DNA from: Dehalococcoidia bacterium
GTDB taxonomy: Bacteria > Chloroflexota > Dehalococcoidia > Bin125
Reading direction: 5' to 3'
Length of the DNA: 34,313 nt
NCBI GenBank assembly: GCA_022826965.1
Contig: JAJDTU010000006.1
Coordinates: 1-34,313, forward strand
Program-made: the position numbers and the translations under genes
In this document: in pieces, positions 1 to 14,102 of the stretch
How positions within the stretch are numbered: the first letter of the stretch is position 1
Layout: every line of letters begins with the position of its first letter
The notes under the pieces: model-generated
Told to the model about the DNA's origin: nothing
The model's database searches: none
What the model saw: the letters and a program-made list of their open reading frames with translations, nothing else

Positions 1-525
1 GACTCCGCTGCCCAGGTTGTAGTCGGCGCCGTCGGTGATGGTCAGAATGATGGTCTCGCCGTTGTCCGAGACCGTGTCCTCCAGGGCCGTGATTGGTATT
101 ACCACGCCTGTGAACCGCGGTGTCCCCGCCGGAATGGTGAACGTCCCGGTGCGGGCCGCGTAGTCCGGGCTGCCGGCATCGATGGTGTAGTCCACCCCGG
201 GCGTCGCCGTACCGCCAATCGTGTAGCTGAAGGTCAGGGCGTTTGTCAGCGGCTGGCTGGTTTGGATTTCGAGATTTGATGAGGTTGAGGGTTCCGATAC
301 ACCAAAAGCCGTACTGCTCCAGAACAGGTTCGGGACACTCTGCGCCTCGGCCCGCTCGGTGGGCGTCACGGCCATGAGCGCCATGCCCACAATCACCGCG
401 AGCAGCGCCGCGACGGCCGTCAGGCGTCGCCAGGGCGCAGCGGTTTTGCGCTTCGGCCGCTCAGTCGAGGGAAATGGGGTGGGGGGGGGGCTCATCAGCC
501 TGGTGCAAACTTTGCGAATGTCCAT
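1..525 (-). CDS. Secreted Calx-beta domain protein, N-terminal part (runs off left edge)
   Basis: The minus strand is open from ATG at 525 to the window edge, giving 175 codons. An AAGGA Shine-Dalgarno at 534-538 lies 8 nt before the ATG and decides the start. Residues 1-33 are basic and proline-rich. Residues 34-54 form a hydrophobic signal core, followed by an AEAQ-S type cleavage site near residue 62. From about residue 75 the sequence reads as a Calx-beta domain, with the typical GTATPGVDY strand, a GTFTIPAG strand and an ETIILTITDGADY ending. Such domains bind Ca2+ and build extracellular adhesins (family knowledge). The protein is probably exported and surface-associated. Codons 12-15 hold a C10 tract, so expression may switch by slippage. 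The C-terminus, and any anchor, lie outside the window. Confidence 0.85.
   Translation of the reverse strand, partial: MDIRKVCTRLMSPPPTPFPSTERPKRKTAAPWRRLTAVAALLAVIVGMALMAVTPTERAEAQSVPNLFWSSTAFGVSEPSTSSNLEIQTSQPLTNALTFSYTIGGTATPGVDYTIDAGSPDYAARTGTFTIPAGTPRFTGVVIPITALEDTVSDNGETIILTITDGADYNLGSGV
481..490. repeat. Homopolymer tract, ten C on the coding strand
   Basis: Ten consecutive G on the plus strand (C on the coding strand) fall in codons 12-15 of the Calx-beta gene, just before the signal-peptide core. With eleven C the frame reaches TGA ten codons past the tract start. With nine C it reaches TGA about 24 codons on. Only a tract of 10 (or 10 plus or minus 3) gives the long protein. Confidence 0.9.
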
Positions 526-607
526 CTCGGGTTTCCTTCGCCAGCGCCGACATACGGTAACGGGTACTAGGGTAGCCGCTCCCCGCCGAGCGCACCATCG
601 GTACACG

Positions 608-2786: not shown

Positions 2787-3464
2787 ATGTCGAGCGGTGC
2801 AGAGACCGAGGAGGCCGTGTTCGCCGGCATCGACGTATCGAAGGCCGTGGTCGATGTCGCCGTCCGTCCAGGAGACGAGCGCTGGCGACTCGGGCGCGAC
2901 GAGGACGTACTGCGTGAGCTGGCGTCCAGACTGTCGGCGATCGATCCCGTCCGGATCGTGCTGGAGGCGTCGGGCGGGTTGGAACTGCCGTTGGTCGCCG
3001 CGCTCGCGGCCACCTCGCTACCGGTCGTGGTCGTTAATCCACGCCAGGTCCGCGACTTCGCTCGGGCGACCGTGAAGGTGGCCAAGACGGACACTCTGGA
3101 CGCAGCGGTGCTGGCCTACTTCGCGGACGCCGTGCGGCCGGCCCTGCATCCCTTGCGGGACGCGGAGACCCAGACTTTGGCCGACCTGGTGGCGCGTCGC
3201 CATCAGCCGTTCACGATGCTGGTCGCCGAGAAGCATCGCCGCCGGGCGATCTAGGGCGGACGAGCACGGGTTCGCGCCATCCTCTACATGGGCGCGCTGG
3301 TCGCGGCGCGCTGCAATCCAGCGATCCGGGACTCCTATCAGCGGCTGCTCGCAGCCGGCAAGCCGAAGAAGCTGGCGCTCACCGCCTGCATGCGCAAGCT
3401 GGTTGTCATCCTCAATGCCATCGTCAAGAGCAACTCGCCGTGGCAAGCGGCTCGCGCGGCTTGA
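2787..3464 (+). pseudogene. IS110-family (DEDD) transposase relic
   Basis: ATG at 2787 starts a product with the RuvC-like DEDD N-terminal domain of IS110/IS492 transposases: FAGIDVSKAVVDVAV (first Asp), IVLEASGGLE (Glu), VVVNPRQVRDFA and KTDTLDAAVLA (later Asp residues). A TAG at 3252-3254 breaks the frame. The same frame then gives only the extreme C-terminus (ILYMGALVAARCNP, KPKKLALTACMRKLVVILNA, SPWQ) to TGA 3462-3464. The central transposase_20 domain with its catalytic Ser is missing, so an internal deletion occurred at about the amber. Intact members have 320-400 residues; here there are 225 codons. Residue 1 is 197 bp inside the left inverted end; in IS110 elements such an upstream non-coding segment encodes the bridge RNA, but I cannot confirm one here. 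The inverted ends at 2517 and 3506 are not typical of IS110. Confidence 0.8.
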
Positions 3465-11040: not shown

Positions 11041-12273
11041 TCAGGCCGGGGTACGTTCGGAGCGCGCCTCATCGCGCAGCACGCGAACCTCGTGAGCGGC
11101 TTGCTCCACGCGCCGGAACACGGCGGCGAGCTCGCCCGATAGATCGAGCGCCACCACCTCAAGTCGCTTGTGCGCATGCATCACCCGATACGACACCGGC
11201 TCCGCGTTTCCCTGGGCGTAGACCAGGAGCCCGCCGGGGAGCTCGAGCGCCGTCGCGTAGGCCAGGAGTTGGTAGAGGTCGGAGCTGGGAACAGACGAGC
11301 CGGGCAGGCTCTTGTACTTGGCGTCGCCGACGAACGTGCAAATCGGACCGTCCCACCAGGACAGGTCGGGCCGGAGACGCAGCTTGCTGTCCTCGGCCAG
11401 CCAGATCTCTGGAATCTCCCGATCTGAACGCAACGTCCGCTCGGATGCCCCGAGCCTGTCGCGTAAGGCGGCGGTCAGAAACTCCTGGAACAGCTGGTTC
11501 ATGTCGATCAGGAATCCCGAGGCGCGGACGCCGCCGCGGCCCGACTCGAAGGCGCCATGGCGCAGCACCAGGCGGGCCAGCCCGACCACGCCGCGGTAGT
11601 GGTCATTGAGACGGTCAAAGCGCACGGGGGGCACCTGGTTCGGTCTGAACTCGACCGCCGTCACCTGCTCCAACATCGCTGCGATCCAGCTCAACTGTCG
11701 GCGCGCCTCGTCGGAGCGCAGACGCATCGATCCAAGCCGGGCGACCGCTGCCCGCACCAGTTGGTTTTCGATGATGTCGTCTGTGAACTCGTCGAATTGG
11801 ACTTCGACCGGCAGACCGGCGCCGAGCCGTCGGCGGAGTTGCTCGTCGAGCCGGATGCGACCGCGAATAGTCCGCAGCGCCTGTTCCTCCGTCCGGTAGC
11901 CGTGCATCAGCCCCTGGCCGAAGGCGCGCCGCGCCGCCGAGGCGAGCGCTAGCGCGAGCGCGTCCGGCAGCGATTGGCGCTCGGCGAAGTCGAAGGGTCG
12001 TTGTGCCTGGGGCCGGAACAAACCCATGACGTACGCGGCGAGTGAGAGCAACTGAGGCACGCCGATCTTCGGCTCGATCATGATCGAAAGGTCGCCGATC
12101 TCGACGGCGCCGACGGTCGAGCCAGCGGTGAGCCGAAACACGCGCCCTTCGCTCGCGACCGGCTCAATCGACAGCTCGAGCGCCGGCGCGTGTTCAAGCA
12201 GCAACTCAAGCTGGGTTGCCGAGAGCACCGACTCCGTCGACGCGTGCTCCTGCAAGTTGAGCTGGGTCGTCAT
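11041..12273 (-). CDS. mcrC: McrC-type nuclease subunit of a McrBC restriction system
   Basis: ATG at 12273 overlaps the mcrB stop as ATGA, so the two are translationally coupled. The 410-residue product has the McrC layout: an N-terminal beta-rich region (GAVEIGDLSIMIEPKIGVPQ), a helical middle (EEQALRTIRGRIRLDEQLRR; FTDDIIENQLVRAAV), and a C-terminal PD-(D/E)XK domain with LRPDLSW (Asp 303) and VGDAKYK (Asp 317, Lys 319). In McrBC, McrC binds the McrB hexamer, stimulates its GTPase and cleaves DNA between modified sites. All active-site residues are present. It should act only with the upstream mcrB product, against methylated or otherwise modified invading DNA. Confidence 0.9.
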   Translation of the reverse strand: MTTQLNLQEHASTESVLSATQLELLLEHAPALELSIEPVASEGRVFRLTAGSTVGAVEIGDLSIMIEPKIGVPQLLSLAAYVMGLFRPQAQRPFDFAERQSLPDALALALASAARRAFGQGLMHGYRTEEQALRTIRGRIRLDEQLRRRLGAGLPVEVQFDEFTDDIIENQLVRAAVARLGSMRLRSDEARRQLSWIAAMLEQVTAVEFRPNQVPPVRFDRLNDHYRGVVGLARLVLRHGAFESGRGGVRASGFLIDMNQLFQEFLTAALRDRLGASERTLRSDREIPEIWLAEDSKLRLRPDLSWWDGPICTFVGDAKYKSLPGSSVPSSDLYQLLAYATALELPGGLLVYAQGNAEPVSYRVMHAHKRLEVVALDLSGELAAVFRRVEQAAHEVRVLRDEARSERTPA

Positions 12274-14102
12274 TCCAGGTCGTCGGAGGCCGGACCCGTC
12301 GACTCGTCTGGCCGTGGATGGTCCGGTTCGGTCGCCGCGCGTTTCGCGGCCTCGCGCCGAAGCTGGTCGAGCTTGAACTCCGCTACCCGCTCGGGATCGC
12401 CGAAGAGCCGTTCCTCCAGGTACGGGACAACGCTGTATGTCCAGGTCCGCTCGACTGCTTGCTCGTCAAGGTTCGGCTTCATGAAGTGGCTGGGTCCGAT
12501 CGCCGCGTGGCGATCGTCGCTCAACCGCTCGTTGGCCAGGTCGACGATGTCTGCAACCCAGTGCATCTGCGTCGGGCCGGTCCGCTCCAGCCAGCGGCGC
12601 AGCAGGCCCTGAATCGGATACCGGTCCGGATGGAACTCCACGAAATGGAAGCGGCGGCGCAAGGCCAGATCGACCAGCGCAATCGAGCGGTCGGCGGTGT
12701 TCATCGTGCCGATGACGTAGAGGTTGTCAGGTAACGAGAAGCGCACGCCGGAATCGCCCGCGTACTGCAGCCGGATCTCATGCTCGCGGTACTCCAGCAG
12801 AAAGTAGAGCTCGCCCAGCACCTTGGCCAGGTTGCCGCGATTGAGTTCATCGATGACCAGGACATACTTGGCCTCGGGCTCGGCGCGCGCCGCTTCAGCG
12901 GCCAGCAGCAGCGGACCGTTCCGCAGTTCGAAGGCCGGCTGTCCCTGCACCAGCGCCGGACGGTAGCCCTGGACGAAGTCTTCGTAGGCGTACGACGGGT
13001 GGAACTGGACGGTGGTCACGCGGTGGTCAGCCGCGGCGAGGCACCGCGCCAGTTGCTGCGCGACGAAGGTCTTGCCGGTGCCGGGCGGCCCGTGCAGGAC
13101 GAGTTGGCGCTTGTCGTCGAGCAGCACCTCGAGTTCTTCCAGGAAGTCGACTGGCAAGTGCAGTCGTTCAGCCAATGCGTCGAGGCTGTCGCCGTCCTCA
13201 AGCTTGACGTCGGGCTCATCGTCGTCGGGGGCCTGATCACCAAGGTCAGACGGGGTGCTCGAAGCCGCTCGACGCTGGCGGCGGCCCCGGACGGCGGGAT
13301 CCCACCGCTTACGGAGTCCCCGGTCGTCGTAGAAGTTCAGCCACTCACCACTGCGCCCGTCCTCAAGCCCAGCGCGAATCACCGCCAGCGCCCGGTCGGG
13401 ATCCTCCTCCGCTCCGTTGAGCGACCCGGCGAAGGCGCAGACGATCATCTGCTTGTGCCGCAGACTGACGATCGACTCAAAGCTGTCCGGGTGCACCAGG
13501 TGCAGCAGGGCCTGCCGCTGCAACCCGCCGCGGTCGGGATACTCGGCGAGCAGCCGGCTGCTCGGTTGAACGGCCAGCAAGAACTGCCTGAACGCCCACG
13601 GATCGGAGAGCAGTCGCTCTTGCCGGGTGGACGTGAGTTGCTTCCACTGCTCGGCGAACTCGATGATCACCGCCAGTTGCCACGGGCGCTGCCGATGGAA
13701 CGCCGGACCCGGACCGGCTATGCCGGGGACGAGGCCATCGATCAACTCCACCGGGATCACCACCGAATCGGGCGACCAGCTGAGCACTTCCTCCACGCGC
13801 TGACGCTGGGTTGCACCGTTCTGCGTCGCGACGATCAAGAAGTGGACATAGAGCGTTTCGGCCATCAGTTGGACCAAGGGCGGAGGAGCGCCGCGGAGCT
13901 GCCGCTCCAGCTTCTCCAGATAGGACGGCCCGTGCCGCTCGTCCGGCTGATCCAGAAAGCGCGCCCGCAGCTCGCGCAGCCAGCGCTCGCTCCAGATCTC
14001 CCGGCCTGGCGTGAAGAGCGATTCGTCGCGTTGCAGGCACTGGCCGACCCACAGAGCAGCCGCTGCGTAGACTCGTTCCGCGTCTGGTTTTCGGGACCCC
14101 AT
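12270..14102 (-). CDS. mcrB: McrB-type AAA+ GTPase with an unrecognised N-terminal domain
   Basis: The 610-residue product starts at ATG 14102. The AAA+ module is clear: Walker A GPPGTGKT (338-345), Walker B VLVIDELNRGNLAKVLGE (Asp/Glu 418-419), the McrB-specific GTMNTADRSIALVDLALRRR (about 465-484, sensor and arginine finger) and FHFVEFHP. A helical linker (AERLHLPVDFLEELEVLLDD) precedes it. Residues 1-330, where McrB proteins carry the DNA-recognition module, do not resemble the E. coli methylcytosine-binding domain to me. They are helical with Trp-rich patches (WVGQCLQRDESLFTPG; WAFRQFLLAVQPSSRLL). Target specificity therefore cannot be guessed. The start is taken from the open frame; its Shine-Dalgarno is weak. 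It forms an operon with mcrC. Confidence 0.88.
   Translation of the reverse strand: MGSRKPDAERVYAAAALWVGQCLQRDESLFTPGREIWSERWLRELRARFLDQPDERHGPSYLEKLERQLRGAPPPLVQLMAETLYVHFLIVATQNGATQRQRVEEVLSWSPDSVVIPVELIDGLVPGIAGPGPAFHRQRPWQLAVIIEFAEQWKQLTSTRQERLLSDPWAFRQFLLAVQPSSRLLAEYPDRGGLQRQALLHLVHPDSFESIVSLRHKQMIVCAFAGSLNGAEEDPDRALAVIRAGLEDGRSGEWLNFYDDRGLRKRWDPAVRGRRQRRAASSTPSDLGDQAPDDDEPDVKLEDGDSLDALAERLHLPVDFLEELEVLLDDKRQLVLHGPPGTGKTFVAQQLARCLAAADHRVTTVQFHPSYAYEDFVQGYRPALVQGQPAFELRNGPLLLAAEAARAEPEAKYVLVIDELNRGNLAKVLGELYFLLEYREHEIRLQYAGDSGVRFSLPDNLYVIGTMNTADRSIALVDLALRRRFHFVEFHPDRYPIQGLLRRWLERTGPTQMHWVADIVDLANERLSDDRHAAIGPSHFMKPNLDEQAVERTWTYSVVPYLEERLFGDPERVAEFKLDQLRREAAKRAATEPDHPRPDESTGPASDDLE

Follow-up and report, generated by a model that had tools for sequence, protein, structure and literature searches.

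At one end of a contig, a run of ten cytosines lies between the start codon and the export signal of a gene for a predicted secreted protein, and the question raised by this arrangement is whether the run acts as a switch for the protein. The window, meaning the whole stretch of DNA that was analysed, is the entire contig G000:C9 (34,313 bp). It belongs to a 3.0-Mb MAG (G000, the window's own genome) that is 97% complete, and the gene is interrupted by the contig end. The favoured answer, with a probability of about 0.8, is that the tract is a simple-sequence contingency locus, one of a genus-wide poly-C set controlling surface proteins and DNA-modification enzymes. The features on which the argument depends are the following:

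1..525, minus strand: ORF for a secreted Calx-beta-like surface protein, N-terminal 175 aa, continuing past the contig end
481..490, minus strand: C10 tract, codons 12-15, the proposed slipped-strand translational switch
476..490, minus strand: interrupted tract C10-A-C4; 20 nt from the end of C4 to CGAAGC
450..455, minus strand: CGAAGC, 25 nt after C10 and 20 nt after C10AC4
534..538, minus strand: likely Shine-Dalgarno AAGGA, inferred from the sequence, 8 nt before ATG 525
367..423, minus strand: hydrophobic core of the signal peptide, residues ~35-53, LTAVAALLAVIVGMALMAV
340..345, minus strand: likely signal-peptidase site AEA/Q, residues 61/62
172..333, minus strand: Calx-beta-like region, residues 65-118 (weak Pfam match)

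The tract reads as G10 on the plus strand and as C10 on the coding minus strand, where it occupies nt 36-45 of the ORF ahead of the hydrophobic core, the position that a sequence-only reading had assigned to it. From ATG 525 to the contig end, the minus-strand frame reads MDIRKVCTRLMSPPPTPFPSTERPKRKTAAPWRRLTAVAALLAVIVGMALMAVTPTERAEAQSVPNLFWSS... and contains an N-terminal export signal with a basic stretch, a hydrophobic core, and the AEA/Q site, recognised by inspection rather than by a predictor. The earlier description of the product as a Calx-beta surface protein holds for the export signal, but not for the family name, as the Pfam Calx-beta match of the truncated 175 aa remains below the curated cut-off (E 0.011, 16.2 bits versus 27). 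"Calx-beta-like" is therefore the safer name.

Changes of tract length were followed in silico. With 11 C a stop is reached after 21 residues and with 9 C after 34, within one residue of the earlier hand-derived values of about 21 and about 35. A frame table for 6-15 C shows that 7, 10, and 13 C all stay open into the signal peptide, which corrects the earlier statement that only the observed length gives the secreted protein. No ATG, GTG, or TTG is found between the tract and codon 44, which already lies inside the hydrophobic core, so that a restart cannot rescue export. Taken alone, however, C10 is weak evidence and only mildly unusual, being present in 7 of 100 dinucleotide shuffles of the window; for this reason, the relatives of the gene were examined.

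Other elements were noticed in the same contig. Upstream of the Calx-beta-like gene there is a single CRISPR-type-I-E-like repeat, CCCCGCGTGTGCGGGGGAACC (611-637), and a search of the window for a second copy returned none. An IS110-like, transposase-like ORF with an internal stop was read by eye at 2787-3460, and McrBC-type restriction genes (AAA-family and McrC-like) are located at 11041-14102.

The nearest protein homologues are encoded in Gammaproteobacteria MAGs (L042, with 86% identity over residues 54-175, and L043, with 62%). At the DNA level, identity to L042 reaches 88% once the TERAEA codons begin, a boundary marked by the conserved stretch TERAEAQ, whereas the upstream part reaches 52% in a forced global alignment and is not meaningfully alignable. 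Judged from this contrast, the protein body looks recently transferred, with different start regions. A search of a plasmid collection for the homologue returned none, and five viral contigs matching the TERAEAQ pattern all proved unrelated. Four close Gammaproteobacterial homologues were examined, and each has a pentanucleotide array between its start and its signal-peptide core:

L042: (CCGAG)11.2
L043: (CCGAG)4.2
L249 (G119): (CCAAG)about 14
L250 (G123): (CCAAG)about 25

Within the genus of the window, a more distant Calx-beta gene (G011) carries C11 in codons 13-16, in frame, and reads MGDVRQQNPGESVPPPRQIRRSISGVGGGAVISRVARLLALAALALL...; an in-frame GTG follows this tract, and translation may restart there. 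Tract length is thus not fixed at ten C among relatives, the congener having C11 in the same position, and mixed proline codons in place of the tract were seen in none of the relatives examined. The Calx-beta gene of another congener (G006) has no tract, so not every member of the family is switchable.

Tracts of C10 or longer are present in all 15 genomes of the genus. Raw C10 counts per genome were rejected as evidence because many tracts, in G001, G003, G004, G008, and G011, abut an N gap or the end of a contig or fall within a GC-rich cluster; these were discarded, and only clean tracts (C10-C18) were counted. Many poly-C/G runs beside N10 gaps or contig ends were seen in G003, G004, G008, and G011 (L233, L317-L334). 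They are probably assembly or two-colour sequencing artefacts, which makes tract lengths in MAGs uncertain and calls for caution in surveys of this kind. Among the clean tracts, 15 of 60 stand directly ahead of a C-strand ORF whose first 45 residues include a hydrophobic segment (13 of 58 without the window and G011 tracts, both chosen beforehand), and the G strand gives 2 of 60. Random positions drawn from the same sequences precede such a signal-peptide ORF in 1.4% of cases (P 5e-15).

The products encoded behind the genus tracts include haem peroxidase, PKD/Ig-like, fibronectin III, and DUF5122 propeller proteins. Tracts also lie in or beside DNA-modification genes: an Eco57I methylase, N6_N4 methylases, an N6 methylase, a C5 methylase, and a BsaWI endonuclease. 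In G007, C16 divides the C5-methylase gene (L216) between two frames, which match successive stretches of the PF00145 profile (6-164 and 231-323). In the Eco57I methylase, three species share the codon position of the tract, with C17 in G005, C10 in G006, and a contig break in G000, where one contig ends at the codon before the tract and another ends beside C28. An N6_N4 methylase begins after C11, in a frame different from that of the upstream ORF. Tract length differs in six of seven ortholog/paralog pairs (C14/C9, C16/C17, C12/C16, C17/C10, C18/C16, and C12/C10), and all six differ modulo three. The seventh is equal; L279/L177, where the comparison picked up another tract of equal length (C16/C16), does not count among the length differences. 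The C10 of the window sits at the short end of the range found in the genus.

Two tracts have peculiarities of their own. Past the tract of the Eco57I methylase gene, all three frames read a similar motif (FTIFHMAGDAELF, GLFNMSSDAHLF, FLRMFDMAQDAGRFF), which is conserved in two species (L188:1147-1330 and L051:5589-5780); these are possibly alternative readings selected by tract length. In G000, a C12 (G12 on the coding strand) at L044:3135-3146 lies four bases upstream of the start codon (ATG) of a solute-binding lipoprotein with a Tat signal, where a spacing or ribosome-site switch is possible.

The tract of the window is followed by the hexamer CGAAGC, and so are other tracts of the genus. 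A search of the 15 genomes for C9 or more, then 15-28 nt, then CGAAGC gave 23 matches, and the reversed pattern gave 0. In a count over 100 distinct tracts, the hexamer clusters between +17 and +25, compared with a rate of 0.3% in the far bins; of the 24 motif-bearing tracts listed in this count, 16 have TA immediately before the C's. Genomes with motif-bearing tracts are G003, G006, G007, G010, G012, G013, and G000 (examples are L216:1480-1523, L203, L209, L213, and window 450-490), the window tract being the only match in G000. A C-tract with CGAAGC at the genus-typical distance appeared in 0 of 100 shuffles of the window. Across the class (393 genomes, C10 or more), the genus gives 20 matches versus 0 controls and the rest 11 versus 9, which is background only; the association is therefore restricted to the genus. 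The genes run either way relative to the motif (C strand in L216 and L244, G strand in L202 and L203), so CGAAGC is not a signal of the message.

Speculatively, this geometry recalls enzymes whose action falls ~20 bp away from an asymmetric recognition site, such as the type IIG enzymes, which cut 14-21 bp from theirs (PMC4889913). Tentatively, and with a rather low probability, the genus might have a DNA-level system dedicated to placing long C-tracts or keeping them mutable, with CGAAGC (GCTTCG on the opposite strand) as recognition site and its action ~20 bp away. If true, contingency loci could be set up in many unrelated genes, and phase variation would be motif-directed instead of passive slippage at random runs. 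The corresponding explanation of the window tract is that it is not chiefly a site of passive slippage: a DNA-acting enzyme, for instance one cutting ~20 bp off an asymmetric site, would have made or maintained it at a set distance from CGAAGC, and frame switching would follow from this. The spacing of the hexamer, its restriction to the genus, and an orientation fixed to the C strand and not to the gene agree with this account. It is nevertheless doubtful, as most genus tracts have no CGAAGC, the spacer separating tract and motif shows no sequence conservation and varies in length by several nt, and no candidate enzyme was identified.

A chance proline run is a less probable explanation again. 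Here, C10 would simply have arisen in a 65% GC genome, encoding Pro-Pro-Pro in a non-critical, long N-terminal extension, with no switching in practice. Such runs do appear in some shuffles of the window, and G000 has several C9-C12 runs, mostly intergenic. Composition, however, leaves unaccounted for the position-matched simple repeats in the homologues and the congener, the genus-wide placement of tracts before signal peptides, and the hexamer at a distance that none of the shuffles reproduced, and chance is accordingly held to be unlikely.

An incorrect tract length, caused by a homopolymer sequencing or assembly error or by a chimeric contig end, is very improbable. This account could draw on the many genus MAG tracts that touch N gaps or contig ends, on the location of the gene at a contig end, and on the abrupt beginning of identity to L042 at the end of the signal peptide. 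The window tract, by contrast, is internal and has clean flanks, and the ORF stays open with a complete signal peptide across the junction. Tetranucleotide composition places the contig with its genus (r 0.93-0.95, versus 0.54-0.75 for the Gammaproteobacteria carrying the closest homologues), and the first 5 kb alone agree (0.84-0.88 versus 0.43-0.68). Binning was judged by these tetranucleotide profiles because a comparison of the window's solute-binding protein with that of G012 gave no information on it.

The pentamer arrays form a repertoire in a few Gammaproteobacteria, being found in 6 of 147 genomes (G101 and five relatives), most of them with large numbers, and in none of the rest. Most arrays have 9-25 copies and precede the signal peptides of large secreted proteins. 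They are in frame with an upstream ATG in L120, L121, L153, L154, L156, and L158, but not in L117, L118, L119, L152, L155, and L043. L043 and L155 share a conserved peptide upstream of the array (MFN.FFAVIERF...SSIEEYNSRAEP), an argument for translation beginning ahead of it. Since an ATG or GTG immediately follows the array in several of these genes, an effect of leader length may also exist in these Gammaproteobacteria. The conserved TTGACA found upstream of the arrays was not taken as a sigma-70 element because of its spacing of about 25. In the MAGs G101, G119, G123, G175, and G178 (L117-L120, L149-L159, L249, L250), (AGCCG)n and (AAGCC)n arrays are numerous ahead of signal peptides of secreted proteins, and the start peptides or leader boxes on their upstream side are conserved. 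For the window, an action of the tract on mRNA structure or spacing near the start instead of on the frame is scarcely credible: some Gammaproteobacterial arrays do directly follow a -10-like box and precede a possible start codon, but the window tract lies 35 nt inside the ORF, where any change of length necessarily shifts the frame.

Under the contingency-locus reading, slippage during replication would add or remove C's. With 10 C (or 7 or 13), ATG 525 would be in frame with the signal peptide and the Calx-beta-like protein would be made and exported (ON), while at other lengths translation would end after about 20-36 residues (OFF). Slippage is the presumed mutational process, and switching would be reversible in populations, with the protein probably displayed at the surface. 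Several properties of known contingency loci are found here: C10 lies above the length (about 8) from which C/G repeats can slip, the number of repeats decides whether the full product is made, relatives carry tracts or arrays of other lengths (C11 in G011, the pairs of other genes, and the pentamers of the homologues), and the tract is part of a repertoire of surface or restriction-modification genes. The initial suggestion of a phase-variation candidate has thus been strengthened by the congener, the pentanucleotide arrays, the genus tracts before signal peptides and in DNA-modification genes, and the length differences between orthologs.

The closest parallels are found in pathogens. The opa genes of Neisseria carry CTCTT pentamers in the region coding for the leader peptide (PMC3960869). 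As in opa, a simple repeat lies here between the start codon and the signal-peptide core, its copy number sets the frame, and the Gammaproteobacterial homologues also use pentamers. Unlike opa, the protein is of an unrelated, Calx-beta-like type, the genus uses a C homopolymer, and switching is predicted from sequence. Campylobacter jejuni has 12-29 poly-G/C contingency loci per genome, including that of the type IIG enzyme Cj0031 (PMC4889913). It shares with the present genus C/G homopolymers inside the frames of surface and restriction-modification genes and the conservation of both enzyme halves around the tract; the genus differs in being a high-GC uncultured lineage, probably of the Dehalococcoidia (Chloroflexota), in its longer tracts (to C18), and in having CGAAGC at an almost constant distance, a feature that, provisionally, has no precedent in the open PMC literature searched. 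A survey of homopolymeric tracts at the 5' ends of genes in 99 genomes found poly-A/T, with poly-C/G generally underrepresented and Thermus thermophilus as the only genome of >50% GC with an excess of C/G tracts of 7-8 (PMC2831843). The tracts near gene 5' ends give frameshift OFF states there as here, but the genus carries poly-C. Among openly licensed PMC papers, such loci were not found for SAR202, Chloroflexota, or sponge symbionts, and this result is provisional. With the same reservation, the new elements are the lineage, a high-GC poly-C repertoire, one protein body with different repeat types across lineages, and the association with CGAAGC.

Simple-repeat phase variation has been documented mainly in host-adapted pathogens. 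The poly-C repertoire of this genus, together with the parallel pentamer repertoire of the unrelated Gammaproteobacteria, which apparently share the surface protein through recent transfer, would extend bet-hedging to environmental or symbiotic bacteria. For the genes concerned, it would also mean that calling them broken or frameshifted when they are found in MAGs is often wrong. Finally, because one surface-protein body is shared and each lineage has its own type of switch, convergent selection for switchability becomes testable.
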